Shown here: piece by piece, positions 20,701 through 63,400 of the stretch
Position numbering within the stretch: position 1 is the stretch's first letter
How the letters are laid out: every line of letters starts with the position of its first letter
From: Owenia fusiformis
Lineage: Eukaryota > Annelida > Polychaeta > Sabellida > Oweniidae
Assembly: GCA_903813345.2 (NCBI GenBank)
Contig: CAIIXF020000006.1
Span: forward strand, 23,629,936-23,693,935
Direction: 5' to 3'
Length of the DNA: 64,000 nt
Program-made: the position numbers and the translations under genes
Notes under the pieces: model-generated
What the model saw: the letters and a program-made list of their open reading frames with translations, nothing else
What the model was told of the DNA's origin: nothing
Database searches by the model: none

Positions 20701-23700
20701 TTTCATTCTCTATTTAAAACTTACAACTACACGTTTCATCTGTAAAAGTTATGTCATCAACAGCAATGTCACCAAAATGGTTGCTTCCTCTCACACCTTC
20801 GATCAAAACCTGGAAAGATTCGATGTAAATGTAATTGTTGTTTCGATTGGTAAATTGATTTTGATTTTGTTCAGCTGTCGCCTTTTTATAATCGTGAGGT
20901 TCAATTCACGTTTTGCATACGTCACTGTAAACAACATCTCTAAAATGGTCTTCGCAATCCTTTATCTTGCAATATTAAAAAGTTAATACTTACATTTGGT
21001 ATATTAATATAAATATATCTTAATGGACTTAAATTCGATATTAACGTGACAAAGTGGCACCAGATGATTGAAATTACAAACGTGTAACAATATGGTACAG
21101 ACGTTAAACGTCGACGCTTAAACCAAACACCGGTCATTGACATAGGCTATAACAATATGTCATCACTTCTTGTTGATAACCCTTAATTTACCTTGTAATC
21201 ATAAAGGCTACTTCTGATAACAACTTGTGCAAACTTCCAGTCGTTCCCTTGTTGCCCACTCAGCTGCCAAACGCGCCTAGGCCTTAATGAAAACCCACGT
21301 CTTATACTCTGCACATATATGTTTAACGTACCAATACCTAAAATGGAGAAGTTATCACCACCAAAAATATCAATATCATCTAAATGAGATAACTTAAACA
21401 TATTATTATGAATTCATATTTTTGTTTTTGTGATTCTTTCTCTTGTGGAATATGATTATGTGATAAAAGAGAGGCCTTGGAATTGTATAAAATAAGTCCA
21501 AACCCGACAATACTGCAAGACATCAACATCCTACCAATCAGACACATTATCAATTGACATGTTTTTCGACCGTACAAAAATGGTCCATACCTTCTCCGTA
21601 CATATGATACCAGAACTTCAAACATCTAGCTTTTGTACTTGGAAACCATTCGCTCTGTACTTGAGCAGTATCCCCAGCTTTACCCGGCCTGCTGCTTTCA
21701 ATAAAAAGATAGTGACCTAAAACAAATAGAAAAATATAGGCCTAGTTGTCTTATATTCAATTATATAATATTAGCTATATCTACATAACAGTATATGCTT
21801 CATTACACACATACAAATTGCCATTCGTCAAGTATTGCAGAGCGACAATTCTGAATTCCCTCTACCATAGACACACTTACCCTCTAAAGAATTGCGTGTA
21901 TGGTCGATTTCGGGTCCCGTAAATCTGCTCTTAGTCCCCCCATATCCTCTAAGCCATTGATAGTAATTCGTGTTTGTCCATGTACACATTCCATATTCAA
22001 AGTCACAGTTTCCTAAAATATTCTAACATGTTGTAATCCCGGGGTTGTAATGTTCTATAATAAGGACAGGATTCAGGTCATATAGGTTTCAGTGGCGGAT
22101 CCAGGAACCAACAGGGGGGGGGGGGCAAATTTGAGGTCAGAGAAAAAACCTTTTGGGCCCATATAAGTGAAAAGTGGGCCCAAATTTTGAAAATTTGAGG
22201 CCCATTTTCTTCAAAATTTGGCCTAAAATTAAAAAAATAAGGCCTTAGAAGGCCCAATAATGACCAAAAGGCCCACTTTTTGGCCCAACTTTTTTTTTAT
22301 TGGCCAACCTTAGGGGGGGGGGGGAGGCCCGGGCCCCATGCCCCCACCCGGATCCGCCATAGGGTTTCAGTTTGGAATATACTACTACTATGTTTTGCAA
22401 ACGGCTGGGTTCGATTTTGCTATGGAGTTGTGTTATTATCATGCATTTGGGATAAGAGTAGTATTATAAACTGACCTGGTTTGGGACAAGATCCTTCAAA
22501 AATAGCTATATCGTCAATTGCAATATCCCCACGTGGTCCATTTCCAACAATAGCTTCAAATAACACCTTGTAATCAACTCCTGACGTAAGACTAGTCTGA
22601 GCGACATTCCAAGCATTTCCTTTATTGCCACTGGTCGTCCATAGTTTATCCTTTAGCGCCTTGTACGTCATATACACATTAAGGGTTCCCATATCATACC
22701 CGTACATGTGGTACCAAAACTGCAGACATTTACCACGAGTTTTAGGGTATTTCGGTGACTGCGTACTCACTAACGTCAATGGTTTACGTCCAGAAGAACG
22801 CGCATAAAGATACTGACCTAAATCAGAGTATTGAATTTACGAAAATAATAAAGAAATCCGAAAACAAAAAGCGTTGCAAATAGGACAAATATGAAATTGC
22901 AAAGGATGTGTCCGGGTATATGCCCTTTTGGTCCCTCAGTCAAATGTATGTTAAATATGTTTTTTATTACTGTCCTAGTTATATTTGATAAGTATATTTA
23001 CTTTTTCACGAGTTTTGATGCAAAATTAACCCCCTGCTGAGAGTCAGAATAAGTATCTTAACCAAAAAAAATAGTCATTATCATAGAATAAAAACCTCAA
23101 TGGCAACATGTATGACTTGCAAAGAAGATATAACTTAAGACCCATAAAGAATTTAAAAGAAAATCATATTTTTGAAATATATTTAAGGATTAAATTTTTT
23201 TTCAAATTTTTGAATTTCCCGCCATTTTAATTTGAAGGGGGAAAAACAAGATGGCTGCCATTTGATGTAAGAAATATCAGAAAAAAAGTTGCTTCACTTT
23301 TAGTTTTCACAATGAGCACAGTTTTCCGGTTTAGGTTTTTTGACTGATTCTGACTCTTCATCACCAGGGTCATGAATAGAGATTATAAAATTGAAACCGG
23401 AATGTTGTGCTCAGCATGAATTTGACTGAAATATGTGTAACTTCACCAACACAATTGAAGTCTCAAAACTGGATGCTCAGTAACTTTGAGTGACTATAAT
23501 CCCTTGATTACCCAGATAAACACCAATTCACTTATCCAGAAATGCCATTCAATGTCTATACAAAGAAAGTAAGCAATGTTTTGGAGGATATGTTTCAAAC
23601 CTTTTGTATAAATAATTCATTTAATATTTGCCATTGATTTTTTTTCAATTCTGACAAAGTGATATGCACTGTCTTTGATGCCAATATTCTTCATTAATTG

Positions 23701-26700
23701 TGATACAAATTGATATTTTTGTACTCTCAGAAGAAGGATAAGATATTGAAGTTTAATAATATGTGTGATTGAGTTGGTTTTTCAGACATTACAATTTTCA
23801 ATATTTTCTAAGTCGATACCTAGACTCATTCCCAGACTCATCCTTTTAAAACAGTATAAAAAGGCACCTCAGAGATTTGGGGATTTGAAAATGTACCTGT
23901 TGATGTCCCAAATGTGTGATCAACACTTGGTCCGGTGAATCTGGTGGGTGTTTGTCCGGAATTGACTGTCCAGTTGTATTTGGAACCCAAAAGGGATGTA
24001 TATCCGCACATATCGCCACTTTCAAAGTCACATAGGCTATCTGTAATTGTTTTGAAAAAAGAGTAAAGCTGAAGAATAAAGCTAAATAATTACAATGAGT
24101 GTAACACTATAGAGGAGTTTACCCAAGATAGAAGCAAATTATGACCAGCTTGCCTTTTATACTATTCAAGTAGAAACTTACATAAATCACCCTTGCAAGG
24201 ACCCATATCAACCATAACGTCATCCAAAGCAATGACACCATTCCAGAGTACACCTCTCATTCCTTCAAAGAGAATCTACAAGACAAGTAAGTAAATAATG
24301 CAGCATTGTCAACCCACACTGGATCAATGGCTTTAGACCTAATTTCTCAGGGGCAATATGTATACTTTCTTTTTTATGCATGCGTTTGGTTACTGTTAAC
24401 CCCCCTATCACACCAAACTAGTTCTTACCCGTTCTTGCCAGTCCTACGAAAACGTCGTCAAACGGGCTCAATCTGGCTGTGGTCGGGAAATGTGTCTGAA
24501 ATAATTAGCTTCTTCGTTCTTAAACAGTCTTCAATAAGTCCATCTCGTTCGCAGTTCGTTCAGGTCGCACCACGTCGGAGTGCAACGTCGTAGAACGCGT
24601 CCCTTAGTCTAGAAGGTCAACATGACCTGATTACAAAACGGTATGGTCGTCATCGAATTTTGAATCGATTCAAAATTCTAAAATCACATTCCCGTCTGAG
24701 AACGTTCAAAAAGTTCGTAAATAGACCTTAGAAAGTTGCAGCTACGTTCATTCCGTTTGCACACAGTTTAAAACCAGTTTTGAAGAACCCAGTGACAACT
24801 TGTTTGGTGTGATAGCTATATTTTTGCTAACTCGTTCATAAGCAGTGTTAAATAAGTTCTTAAACAGTTTAAACCCGTTTGCAATTAGTTCTACCTCGTT
24901 CTCAACACGTCCGCAGACAGTTCAACTCGTTGTTAAAACGTCCCTTACGACGGTTCCGTTCGTAGTACGTCCAGCTCGTCGTTAGTACGTTGTCACTCGT
25001 TCTAATTGTAGAACGTGACGACCACGAGAACATTTTGAGCATTGTCTAAGTTCTAGAGGACCTACCGTTCGAGTACGTTCGATGAAGTTTGTAAATAGAT
25101 AGATTTCGAGAACGCAGTGAGAACTAGTTTGGTGTGATAGTAGGGTTACCGAAATATGATAAAATTGCCGAATTTGATGTTTGTCAACATTGCTAGTTTC
25201 AACAGCGAAAATACACGTCGGGGACTAAAAATATTGTAAATTACAATTTTTTAGAGGATTGCAAACTATAAGTTAATAATGAGATTATAGAGCGGCAGCC
25301 TTTTGGAGAACCATATCATTTTCTCAATTCTATCTAGTAATATCTAGCCCCATATGTTTTACTGTAATATTTTTTATTCATCAATGGATAACTGATCTAT
25401 TGGATGGGATTATAACTAAGGTCGCCAGAGAGAAACATTGTAAGTCTTATATTTTACTAGGCAATATAGATCAAACTATTTTCGAGAGAGAATCTTCAAT
25501 AAAAGATTTTTCCTCAACAAAACTATTATAGCCATTTATCGAGTCATAGCCTCTGTTCAATATCTGACCTGGGACGTATAATTAGTTCTGATTGTAAGTT
25601 CCCCTTGGTGCCATTCATTTCCCCTGGATCCCTTTCTTGTCCAAACTGGTAGTCCTTTGTCTTGATTCACCGAGGCAATATACACATTTAGTGTATTGAC
25701 CAATGGACCATACATGTAGAACCAAAAACTCAAGCAGATTCCTTCAGTTGGAGGGACGATGTAAGATCGAATCCTGGCAGAGTCATTAGCGGTCCGTATT
25801 GTGCCAAAGGGGATTGTCATAAACCATCCATTTTCTGAAATTAGATAGAAAAAAATCCGTTGATAGATTCTGAATATATAGCCAATAAATTATGAATATT
25901 AAGCAAAATCTGATTACATAACTGAGAAGACTAGATTTAAAGAGCACCAATACCTGTTTTAGTGGTATGATCAAATGTTGGACCGCCATCATTGTCAGGT
26001 GACGTTGCCTGTATCCTCATCCAATCAAAGTCGTTATCAGAATCACGTGTCCAGTCACATGTTCCGATCTCGAAGTCGCAATCATACCTAGATGGCACTC
26101 TTGGCAATGGTGTACTCTGCAGTGTTGTTGGTGTTGCTGTTGTACCAAAAATATTGGCATCGTATGGAATAACTAGAAATAAAATTTATCAGGATTTCAA
26201 CTTAAAGTTTAAGCAGTTTATATTTTATAACTAGTTTTAATGTCATCCACGTCCATAATGTCATCCACGTCCATACATTCGCCAGGCCTATACATGTAGT
26301 TAATGGCATCTCAAATGTGTTTTCTTTTAGCCAACCATACACACGTGCACAACGTAAATGAGAGGCAAAACACCAATATTTTCAAACTATCATATTTATG
26401 TCGCAGGAGCGTAGTTAGCTTTCAGTCAGGGGGGGGGGGGGGGCGATCGCCAATCAAATTTCGGTTTTCAATCTGGGCGATCGTGGCATAACCGAGCCAA
26501 AAAAAGATGTTTTTGTATTTTACAAAAGATAATGCAAACGTCCTTCAAAATTGAGCTAGAAGCTAGAAAAAGCATTCGCGCGTTCGCACCCGTCGCCCCC
26601 CCCCCATGGCTACGCCTATTTGTTACATTTTGTGCATGCTATACACACAATGCTTATTATTATACAGATATAAAGACAGCGTGACGCATGTGATCAATTA

Positions 26701-29700
26701 TTTTATTGAAGTACAATTACAAAAAAGCTGTTATTAAGCTGTAAGCATGTAATGTTGTTTTTCCACATTGTGTAGGAACTATATTATGATTATAATTTCA
26801 CTTTTGGATTTATCTGTGTGCAGGCATTAATCGTATATTTTTATATTTTATATCATGACTTTGTGTTAAAGTAACACTTGATAACAATTATATTACATAA
26901 ATAAATAAAAAAAATAGTATCATACTTATTTTTTTTAAGCGAGGACTCATTTAAACAGGGGAACATTTGATGAAACTGCAAGGCACACGTGACCGGTTTT
27001 ATCAAATTTATTTTATTGCATGCTCCTGTTTAATTTGACAGAAAACAACGTTCATCTCATTTTTCATCACTTAAAAGATCTTATCATTGTCCATATTGTC
27101 CATGTTACAACAATTTACAACATGTCTGTTCCGAACGGTAATACTAGAACATTCCTATCCAACCTATGAACACGTTCACGGTAGACTTTTTTTTACAAAA
27201 ACACAGCCAAATAAATTTTAAATCTAGGCCTTCTCCAGATAAACTAATCAAAAGAAAGATCTCCCCAAGGTGACTCATCGTTGATAGCATATATAACAAC
27301 CAGTGGGAATAATTGGGTATTTGTAAGCAATTGAGTAAGACAAGATGCAACATCGCATATTCATAGCAATTTTGATGTTCAAATTCACAATCGAAGGTTC
27401 GGTTGCAATTACAAAGGATCAAGTAAAGGAGATTAAAAAGGATATTGTGGAACTTATCGAGGCTAACAGAGATCCAAAGGACGGTGCACTCCATTTTATT
27501 CCTGGTTTTGTCCGAGTAGCATTCCACGACTGCGTAGGCGGCTGTGATGGGTACGTGGAGCATTATACATTACATGCATGAACGCGCATGAAATAACTTT
27601 TTACTTTTAAGTTTGATCCAAGAACTATATGTTGAAGTAATTTATATTATTCTCACGTCTTATATATCGATTCATGATCATCAAATGAACAAGTACGTGC
27701 AATTTATTATATCGAAATATTATATATAATTGCGATTAATTCTCTGTAGGTGCCTCAATCACTCTGATGAAAATAATGCTGGCTTGAGTGTATATGTTGG
27801 ACCCCTTGAAACAATCTACTTAAAATATAAGACCCTCTTGTCCAGGGCAGACTTCTGGCAGCTAGCCGGTATAACAGCAATAGAAAGGAGTGTCGAGAAA
27901 TGCAAAGACTGCATTAAACCAGATTTGCCATTTGAGACAGGTTTGGAAACATATATATACAGTTTTTTTTATATGTATGCACCCCCTCTAGAACCATACA
28001 CGTAGAATTGCCACCCTATCATGTAATACTTAATTTTGTTCCTTACCCCCCTATCACACCAAGCTAGTTCTTACCCGTTCTTGCCAGTCCTACGAAAACG
28101 TCGTAAAACGGGCTCAATCTGGCTGTGGTCGGGAAATATGTCTGAAATAATTAGCTTCTTCGTTCTTAAACAGTCTTCAATACGTCCATCTCGTTCGCAG
28201 TTCGTTCAGGTCGCACCACGTCGGTGTGCAACGTTGTAGAACGCGTCCCTTTGTCTAGAAGGTCAACATGACCTGATTACAGAACGGTATGGTCGCCATC
28301 GAATTTTGAATCGATTCAAAATTCTAAAATCACATTCCCGTCTGAGAACGTTCATAAAGTTCGTAAATAGACCTTAGAAAGTTGCAGCTACGTTCATTCC
28401 GTTCGCACACAGTTTTGAAGAACGCAGTGGCAACTTGTTTGGTGTGATAGCTATATTTTTGCTAACTCGTTCATAAGCAGTGTTAAATACGTTCTTAATC
28501 AGTTTAAACCCGTTTGCAATTAGTTCTACCTCGTTCTCAACACGTCCTCAGACAGTTCAACTCGTTGTTAAAACGTCCCTAGTTGGATTGAAGTACGACG
28601 GTCCCGTTCGTAGTACGTCCAGCTCGTCGTTAGTACGTTGTCACTCGTTCTAATTGTAGAACGTGACGACCACGAGAGCATTTTGAGCATGTTCTTAGTT
28701 CTAGAGGTCCTACCCGTTCAAGTACGTTCGATGAAGTTTGTAAATAGACCCCAAACGGTTCTAAGTACGTCCAGTCCGTTCGTACACAGTTGAAGCCCGT
28801 TTTCGAGAACGTAGTGAGAACAAGTTTGGTGTGATAGTAGGGTTATGAAAAGTAGCATAAGACTGCAAAGTTTCAAGATCAAGGAGTGTCCCTGAAAAAA
28901 GTTACAATGTATCGAAGTATGCGGGTACGTGATAATTCATAAGCATTTTTGTAAGCATTTTTGGACCCTTGATCTGTTCACTATACCCGTTACCCATTTC
29001 TATTAATTAAGTTGGTACCATACCCCTGGCCTCCCTATAAGCCACTCTGCCTATATATCCTTTAATTGATCTCAAAGTAACCAGGAATTGCCCCTAAATG
29101 ATCCCGTACCCACATATTTCGATACATTGTTTCTTTTTTCAAGGACATCCCTAGATTCTGAAACTTTGCAGTCGTATGTAACTTACTATGATGAACAAAA
29201 TGGTATATATCATGATAGGGTGACAATGCTACATATTTTAAAGGGGGTGCATACATATGGACATACATATGGTATACAGTGTGTATAAAAAACGCAACAG
29301 ATTGTTATCTCGGAAAGGCACAAAACCAGTGATAACAGCCTTGATTTAATTCAATGCACCATAAAGCCACGTGTTTCCTCTTTACAATGATATATCATTC
29401 ATTGATATTTGGTCATGGTTGGGCGAGAAATCATTTCATTTGCAAAGTTGGCCAAAATTAGCTTGGGACCAAGTTATAAACATCGCAAAAGTCAGTGTAC
29501 GGAGCACGATGCAATATTGGAAAAAAACATAAAACCAATGCTGACTGCATCCTTTTCATTCAATGTACCAAAAAGCCAAATTACTCCTCTTTGCGATGAA
29601 ATATATCATTCATTCACAGGGAGTCATGGCTGGCCGAATAATCAAAAATTGCAACAAGTAGTTATCTCGTAAAATCAAAAAACTAGTGATGACTACATCA

Positions 29701-60421: not shown

Positions 60422-63400
60422 TCACGGTGCAGTGGTTGCATGTAGGTCTGTAGCGTTGTACCCAGTTCTAATCATCATCATATACGCAATGGCAAAGTTT
60501 TCCTCCCAGAGTGTCGCATTATCCGCATATTTCCGTACCCACTCGGCAGTGTCCGGCTGATCTTTGCACTTGGATGAAACCGGACATCCCGATAAGCCTG
60601 TTGCATCTGTAGATAGATTTTTAGCAAAAGCAAGGTCTGCATTCAGCATCATTACTCCTTTCTTCCGCTTGTCAAATATATTCTGTTTCTTTGAGTGAAC
60701 TAAAATGATATAAAATTGAATATTCAATATCATGTAATTCACGTAATTAATTAAATGGTATGATCAACGAAAAATACGTTAATTTTGTACATCAACTTAC
60801 ATTTGCCTGGTTGCCATTGATAAATTGGATCTACACCGGGTTTTCCCTTATTGAGGTCGATCTGTGACCACCTCAACTTGATGAGATTCTTGTAGTATCT
60901 GTTTGTGATCTGATCGGGATTTTGGGTCCAGCGTCCATTCCATCCGGAAGCTGAAGCATGGGACTCACCAAGACTGTGGGCGCCAATCAAAGCAGTTGCC
61001 AATTTAGGATCGGTGCGTGGAAGACCTGGTAAGAGTGTAAAGGATTGTTAGCATTGATCGAATCCATTTTCGAAAGTTAGAATAGGGCTTCTTAAACAGG
61101 ACATTAAAGCTTAACCACTGTAACCAAGGCCTTTTTAAAAAATTTGTTTAGTACTACAGGGTGACCGGAAAAAAGGAGACTATTGGTGTAGGCAATATCT
61201 CCTAAACTAGACAAGTGACATCAATGAAATTCAGTACACATCAGAACAGTTCCTGAAAGTTTCAATACAACTTGTCGACTGGTTCAAGAGCTGTGATCAT
61301 TTATATTACCGACTCCAATTTGCCACAATTGAGACCAAGGCAGAAATGGATTCATAAGACAAGATACCTTTACATATTCAGCTCTTGTACTGGCATCACA
61401 TCAGCAGTGATTGCCTTCTTTAGGTCAGAAATTTTCTGAGGATTGTTTTGATAAAGTCAAGTTTGGGGTATATGAAAATGAAGGGTCATCTGACTAATGA
61501 CTCAGTGGCGCTGCTCAGTTTCCGATAGAAACCACTCACTTAGAAGTTTGGCGAAGAATTGCAAACTTCCGGAAATATATTAACACTCTACGCTACAATT
61601 ACGTGTCACTCTGTACTCACCAAAGGCATTTTCCAGAAAAATCATTCCACTGTTGATATCAGCATGACCCCCGCCCATAGGAAAAGTTCTTAGTCCTTTA
61701 TAATCAGGGGAATCGGCACAGTCTTTTCGTCCTATAAAATGAAAATTTACCATATTCTTAGTTCCGTATTCTTAAACCTACTTATTACAAGTCAAGTTGC
61801 ATATTATAATTTGGCGCAAAGCTAGAAAATATAGCCTAGTTTCTTCGAATTTGGAATTTGTTTTGTTTTGGCGCAAAGCTAGAAAATATAGCCTAGTTTC
61901 TTCGATTTGGAATTTGTTTTGTAAATGAACTTGCAATTCATATATTTAGCCCCTCGCTTTTGTTACATTGACGAAAGTCCGTTATACATGTTATATGAAC
62001 AATATTCAGTCTAAGTAACTAGTTGTGGAACAGTGGTAAAGATTGTTTTTGATTGACCTCTGATTTTTCAACGATATTTGCATTTACTGAGCTTCGCATA
62101 GGCCAAAATGCCCTAATACGTTACTACCGCTGAATAAAAGAAGTAGTTTTCAAAAATAAATGTAGTCCCAACACATTTGTGATCATGACGAGTCAGTAAG
62201 CTAGAATGTAGGCACAGTTGTCATATTTTTGCAATGACAACATGCCATTTCTTCTGAAAATGCGTTTATTTGGGTTATCTGAAGGAAAATTTCGAGTCAA
62301 GTGGCGTATTAATTTTGCCTTCATTTTTGTGAATATCACTTTCTGTCGGCAGAGAGAGGGGGTTTTGTCACAATTGATCAATTATTTCAAAAAGTAGATG
62401 TTTGGCCCTTATAGTAGTGTCAAAATGTACCTTTAAGAACCTCAGATAGGCCAGTGAGGCCACATAAATCCCTAACTCGAGATAAAAAGTCAGGCGTTTG
62501 CCCTTTTGCCCATTGGCTAGTATGGTGACGTGAATTGGGGCAGTTTGGCCATAGCTCGCATATAGTTCCACTGCGTTCGACGGGAGCCGAGTTAACCCCC
62601 CTATCACACCAAACTAGTTCTTACCCGTTCTTGCCAGTCCTACGAAAACGTCGTCAAACGGGCTCAATCTGGCTGTGGTCGGGAAATATGTCTGAAATAA
62701 TCTTCAATACGTCCATCTCGTTCGCAGTTCGTTCAGGTCGCACCACGTCGGAGTGCAACGTAGTAGAACGCGTCCCTTATTCTAGAAGGTCAACATGACC
62801 TGATTACAGAACGGTATGGTCGTCATCGAATTTTGAATCGATTCAAAATTCTAAAATCACATTCCCGTCTGAGAACGTTCATAAAGTTCGTAAATAGACC
62901 TTAGAAAGTTGCAGCTACGTTCATTCCGTTCACACACAGTTTAAAACCAGTTTTGAAGAACGCAGTGGCAACTTGTTTGATGTGATAGCTATATTTTTGC
63001 TAACTCGTTCATAAGCAGTGTTAATTACGTTCTTAATCAGTTTAAACCCGTTTACAATTAGTTCTACCTCGTTCTCAACACGTCCGCAGACAGTTCAACT
63101 CATTGTTAAAACGTCCCTAGTAGGATTGAAGTACGACGGTTCCGTTCGTAGTACGTCCAGCTCGTCGTTAGTACGTTGTCACTCGTTCTAATTGTAGAAC
63201 GTGACGACCACGAGAACATTTTGAGCATTGTCTAAGGTCTAGAGGACCTACCCGTTCGAGTACGTTCGATGAAGTTTGTAAATAGATCCCAAACGGTTCT
63301 TAGTAGGTCCAGTCCGTTCCTATACAGTTGAAGCCCGTTTTCGAGAACACAGTGAGAACTAGTTTGGTGTGATAGTAGGGTAACGAAGATGCGCATCTTA

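Follow-up and report, generated by a model that had tools for sequence, protein, structure and literature searches.

A MITE family of Owenia fusiformis built from helically phased CGTTC words, a possible binding array for its mobilising protein

Three copies of a non-coding MITE of ~800 bp, at 24400-25145, 28046-28842 and 62596-63380 of a 64,000-nucleotide stretch of Owenia fusiformis DNA (the window), are composed of CGTTC-type words that recur at one turn of the helix; in a consensus of 33 family copies, the best period for [CA]GT[TC] words was 10.44 bp. Among the explanations tested, the most probable, at about 0.45, is that the MITE body serves as a binding array for the protein that mobilises it, followed by a decayed tandem repeat and then by an array for a host factor. 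We infer each of three steps here, namely binding of the words by a protein, the identity of this protein with the mobilising one, and its possible membership of PIF/Harbinger.

The element is a MITE: it is short, contains no reading frame of at least 100 amino acids, has terminal inverted repeats (TIRs) at both ends, is flanked by a target duplication and exists in many near-uniform copies. The terminal repeat reads CCC(CC/TA)CTATCACACCAAACT[AC]GTTCT and is inverted at the opposite end. Exact ends of the form TWACCCNNCTATCACACCAA numbered approximately 2,600 in the 498-Mb genome, searches of which met 12 large contigs, versus 0 in a reversed control, and paired ends defined size classes of 565-588 bp and 792-825 bp (~570 and ~800). 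All three window copies lie on the plus strand; copy 1 (CCCCCC...GGG) is flanked by TAA (24397-24399) and TTA (25146-25148), copy 2 by TTA on both sides (28043-28045 and 28843-28845), and copy 3, which is missing ~22 bp of its left half, by TAA on both sides (62593-62595 and 63381-63383). The consensus includes a perfect 24-bp palindrome at 259-282. At some sites, for example C1:46984798-46984827 and C12:34385527-34385556, one terminal repeat almost touches the other (CTATCACACCAAACTACATGTAGT...), and these may be very short derivatives. MAM and LDL-receptor-A domains are encoded by two reading frames of the window, in which neither Rfam nor tRNA searches gave a match.

One copy, L011, had inserted into a repeat whose unoccupied form was found elsewhere in the genome, and comparison of the empty site (...AACGACATAAACACAAC...), which has a single TAA, with the filled site (...AACGACATAA-CCC...GGG-TAAACACAAC...) revealed a TAA duplication. 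A TWA flank was present at ~98.6% of MITE ends (2,600, versus 37 TSA), and where the rare TCA/TGA flank pairs occurred, both ends matched in 3 of 3. Among 55 W-type copies (27 plus 28 from two sets, one copy possibly being common to both), the central flank base, A or T, was mismatched between the ends in 23 (42%), with correlation absent or nearly so, which would be unusual if the flanks were a simple target-site duplication; mPing transposes less when its TTA/TAA flanks do not match (PMC4561436). At L002, L018, L092 and C1:5176644-5176680, copies lie end to end with a single TWA between them; therefore, the target duplication of one copy can serve as the insertion site of another.

The TWA targets suggest PIF/Harbinger, whose second protein is Myb-like, and the MITE word C[AC]GTT is one that we take to resemble a Myb site. 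Membership is unproven and is not claimed, because no autonomous, transposase-bearing relative was found through TIR pairs or at loci behind TIRs, and because the exact TIR core was absent from the 1.5-kb flanks of the best 30 of the 150 DDE_Tnp_4 matches in the genome; TIR matches with up to 3 mismatches beside those 30 Harbinger-type loci were approximately as numerous as expected by chance. Several candidates were discarded. Two TIR pairs spanning 8.5 and 4.1 kb each proved to be separate MITE copies, and the 31 loci at which the sequence behind a TIR diverges resembled deletion or insertion derivatives of the MITE, solo ends or chance matches. A near-TIR (TTAACCTATCCCACC) beside Harbinger transposases at L054 and L055 was set aside because the homology of the two loci extends past both sides and such matches occur at chance level. 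Assignment to hAT was rejected on the 8-bp target duplication of that group, the duplication here being 3 bp, and assignment to piggyBac, despite ends that do start with CCC, on flanks that are TWA and not TTAA.

The initial annotation, made from the window alone, had proposed that the CGTTC words of the MITE copies are helically phased and that a peak near 10.5 bp should appear by autocorrelation of a family consensus; the 10.44-bp period of the consensus, with a periodicity signal beyond that of shuffled sequences, establishes that the phasing is real. The four pentamers CGTTC, CGTCC, AGTTC and CGTTG occur 25, 30 and 25 times in the three copies, against the 2.7-3.1 expected from base composition, and in the consensus the distances between pairs of [CA]GT[TC] words pile up at 10-11, 20-21, 31, 41-42, 52-53, 62 and 72-73 bp, with the intervals between nearly empty; ~18 additional words sit on the opposite strand. 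A motif-free autocorrelation statistic for the consensus was greater than in 500 of 500 dinucleotide shuffles, and a cyclic hidden Markov model (11 columns with skips, random starts and no preset motif, the gain being measured over background) yielded a log-likelihood gain of 116, versus 34-42 in shuffles. The resulting unit of ~11 columns, A..ACGTTCTT, is read as A-(G/A)-(A/T)-A-C-G-T-T-C-T-T; conservation peaks at the G of CGTTC, with 1.45 bits of information versus 0.05-0.7 elsewhere, and the A five bases before that G is weakly conserved. When 400-bp plus-strand segments of the window were scored for the array, the best 16 all overlapped the three MITE copies (27-82; window median -50).

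Phasing is most apparent in copy 2, in which eleven words (CGTTC/AGTGT/CGTTC/AGTTT/CGTTT/AGTTC/CGTTC/CGTCC/AGTTC/CGTTG/CGTCC) cover 0-106 bp of the plus strand at 28468-28578, their starts falling at +11, 22, 33, 43, 54, 64, 75, 86, 95 and 106 from the first; this spacing is nearly that annotated initially, and the run begins at 28468 rather than at ~28472. After a 31-bp gap, a second plus-strand run occupies 28605-28650, with CGTTC at 28605, CGTCC at 28616, CGTTG at 28636 and CGTTC at 28646. Phase coherence in the family was strong to ~60 bp (mean cosine 0.51) and still evident to 120 bp (0.22), and at greater distances it was absent or negative; thus, the idea that every motif occupies one face of the helix holds within segments of ~100-150 bp and not for the whole element, the phase of which drifts past ~120 bp.

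A period that equals the helical repeat, together with AA and TT that are each periodic, could also signify curved or nucleosome-positioning DNA, as the initial annotation had suggested. GT and CG are likewise each periodic, whereas WW and SS are not so beyond shuffles, and AA and TT lie ~5 bp, or a half turn, apart, so their bends cancel; three simple bend models (WW/SS, AA/TT and roll-based sums) remained at shuffle level. From the lack of bend signal and the antiphase of AA and TT, the array is distinct from nucleosome-positioning or curved DNA, and we consider that reading highly improbable. The periodicity resides in strand-specific words and not in WW/SS, as would be predicted for protein sites rather than for bendability. 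Elsewhere in the window, a different MITE-like repeat (CAGTGGCGGATCCAGG...CCGGATCCGCCATAG) at 22080-22362 coincides with the strongest stretch of 10.35-bp signal, apparently produced by alternating GGCCC/AAATTT of the bend or nucleosome type, which the CGTTC family lacks; a tandem array at 963-1660, with 135/146-bp units rich in AAAATGGCCGCCATTTT, has a period signal of 10.35-10.45 bp.

De novo DNA methylation by a methyltransferase favouring CpGs one turn apart would provide another use for phased words, and CpG observed/expected is 1.51 in the MITE consensus versus 0.75 in the window. However, 14 of 44 words have A in place of the C, and in the unbiased model the G is nearly invariant, making GT, and not CG, the constant part; a methylation array is accordingly the reading to which we give least credence.

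The ~800-bp MITE carries an internal copy of its own right end and, judged by comparison with older copies, is a dimer in which two monomers of ~500 bp are fused. The first half (H1) is a shortened monomer and the second (H2) is another monomer minus the first ~108 bp, with the junction at GGTGTGATAG/CTATATTTTTGC. In copy 1, H1 (24400-24815, plus strand) ends in the internal right terminal repeat GGTGTGATAG at 24806-24815 and H2 follows at 24816-25145 (plus); in copy 2, H1 (28046-28450, plus) likewise has the internal terminal repeat at its end, and H2 (28451-28842, plus) is where the phased array is strongest. A diverged relative of ~920 bp (L063/L064, ~70% identity) belongs to a local duplicate cluster (C7:36.1-37.1 Mb, C29). 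The array is weak in L063, with 400-bp scores of -6 to +20 (window median -50; window copies up to +82); L063 was dropped as an independent consensus, as its close copies sit in the duplicate cluster and its array is weak. In L069 (C6:2530500-2532010) and L074 (C12:36494400-36495860), the left terminal repeat is broken at the identical place (CTAGTTCTT, then a run of T) by unrelated sequences that resemble retroposon insertions.

Alignment of H1 with H2 yielded identities of 76-78% for word cores and 64-65% for spacers, corresponding to conserved sites of 135/174 versus 133/207 (p 0.005) and 132/173 versus 136/208 (p 0.02). Neutral simulations taken through the same procedure gave a difference of 0.004 +/- 0.05 and produced one as large as that observed in 0 or 1 of 120 runs; the observed difference persisted without the terminal repeat (p 0.012) and was weaker with the register taken from H2 (p 0.09-0.13). 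The 24 fixed subfamily differences lowered the array score less than did 24 random private substitutions (7/400; in the other direction, 34/400). Counted per site, the fixed differences that separate young from old subfamilies numbered 10/368 in cores and 15/435 in spacers (p 0.84), without depletion in cores. Selection on the word cores is suggested by these comparisons and not demonstrated, because the H2 register weakens the core test and the per-site subfamily count gives no core depletion.

The second-ranked explanation is that a unit of ~10.5 bp (or 21 bp) expanded to give the monomer and has since decayed, leaving a phasing without function. One-turn spacing would follow automatically from such an origin, which would also accommodate the frequent indels of near one unit (9-13 bp) among copies, including a +11-bp insertion common to 16 of them, the absence of core depletion among subfamily substitutions, and the weak conservation of the unit at the A five bases before the G. 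In a simple fossil of this kind, nevertheless, cores and spacers should have decayed equally, whereas cores outlasted spacers between the halves although CpG should decay faster. Most simulations of uniform decay also placed less of the conservation on a single column, though their array scores were lower. Internal direct repeats extend to no more than 22-31 bp at ~80% identity (those of H2 do not exceed 31 bp, with ~80% identity in the longer of them), and the monomer consensus has none at E<1, which counts against recent expansion of a tandem unit, the cause that the initial annotation had said would undo its proposal. A genome-wide search for exact CGTTC phased triplets returned 13, versus 4 in a reversed control, of which 6 were one GC-rich 11-bp satellite sequence, and no source satellite for the CGTTC array was seen in it. 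On balance, we regard a fossil tandem repeat as rather unlikely.

The periodicity of the consensus, the strand-specific words and the preferential retention of cores between the ancient halves lend support, at the level of sequence comparison, to the protein-binding array that had been proposed initially. We reasoned that the MITE, as a non-autonomous DNA transposon, would be mobilised in trans, and that its body words would be degenerate sites recognised by a sequence-specific DNA-binding protein on which mobilisation depends; this would be the transposase, through its DNA-binding domain, or a partner like the Myb-like protein of PIF/Harbinger. Spacing of the sites by one turn would allow many protomers to sit next to one another on a single face over ~ten turns; binding by multiple protomers would offset the weak recognition of 4-5-bp words, and the array would make the MITE stand out from the rest of the genome as a target. 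Against an array for the mobilising protein stand the failure to find a transposase-bearing relative and the spread of the words over the whole MITE, known subterminal arrays being near the ends.

That same spread, together with the great number of copies (2,600 exact termini), would suit an array for a host protein outside the transposition machinery, such as a chromatin factor or a silencing or anti-silencing factor; in C. elegans, PATCs, which are helically periodic A/T clusters, shield germline transgenes from silencing (PMC7725773). The pattern in the MITE, however, is of neither the A/T-cluster nor the bend type, and its first words already lie in or beside the terminal repeats, the presumed transposase sites, pointing inward from both ends. 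Because of this placement, a transposase or its companion is favoured over an unrelated host factor, and we judge a host-protein array to be unlikely, more so than the fossil repeat.

A stronger form of the array for the mobilising protein is that the whole body is kept for this purpose as some 60-75 sites at one-turn spacing, on which a stack of transposase or companion protomers would coat the element. We consider this form doubtful; if true, mobility in trans would be selected via the quality of the array, and the success of a MITE would be set by array length and phase. How gene-less MITEs reach thousands of copies is an open question, to which a phased, element-long array would offer a specific answer that can be tested, namely that the mobilising protein is recruited better. 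The role of subterminal repeats would then be widened from the tips to the whole element.

The statement in the initial annotation that no MITE of this design has been described agrees with a limited search of the open-access literature; dense arrays of 4-5-bp transposase sites are, however, known in the ends of hAT and other transposons. The PATCs of C. elegans are likewise non-coding DNA with words at the helical period (PMC7725773), but consist of A/T runs, have no CGTTC words and are not transposons, and in the MITE AA and TT are in antiphase. The mPing/Tourist-like MITEs of PIF-Harbinger share with the present family a 3-bp TTA/TAA preference with rare TCA/TGA, short non-coding sequence and inverted ends (PMC4561436). 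Non-matching central flank bases in 42% of copies set the present family apart from mPing, and a transposase or Myb-like protein acting on it is putative. We know of no phased array in mPing. Galileo and Foldback elements also have repeated binding sites, THAP sites in Galileo, within long, internally repetitive ends, read as a source of specificity; Galileo, of the P-element superfamily, differs in having only 3 located sites, far apart and not helically phased (PMC3688188). In piggyBat, subterminal sites can inhibit (PMC11707139), and therefore the effect of the array in the MITE could be of either sign. Among hAT elements, Hermes has AAGT sites in arrays to which BED domains bind, and Tol2 and Ac need subterminal sequence; like the MITE, these elements carry many 4-5-bp words, the first at or beside the terminal repeats, in both orientations and in quasi-palindromic pairs, and multimerisation has been proposed to offset weak recognition of single sites (PMC10368747). 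The hAT arrays, in elements with an 8-bp target duplication, are situated near the tips and have not been described as helically phased, whereas the words of the MITE, with its 3-bp TWA duplication, fill ~800 bp at a spacing of one turn.
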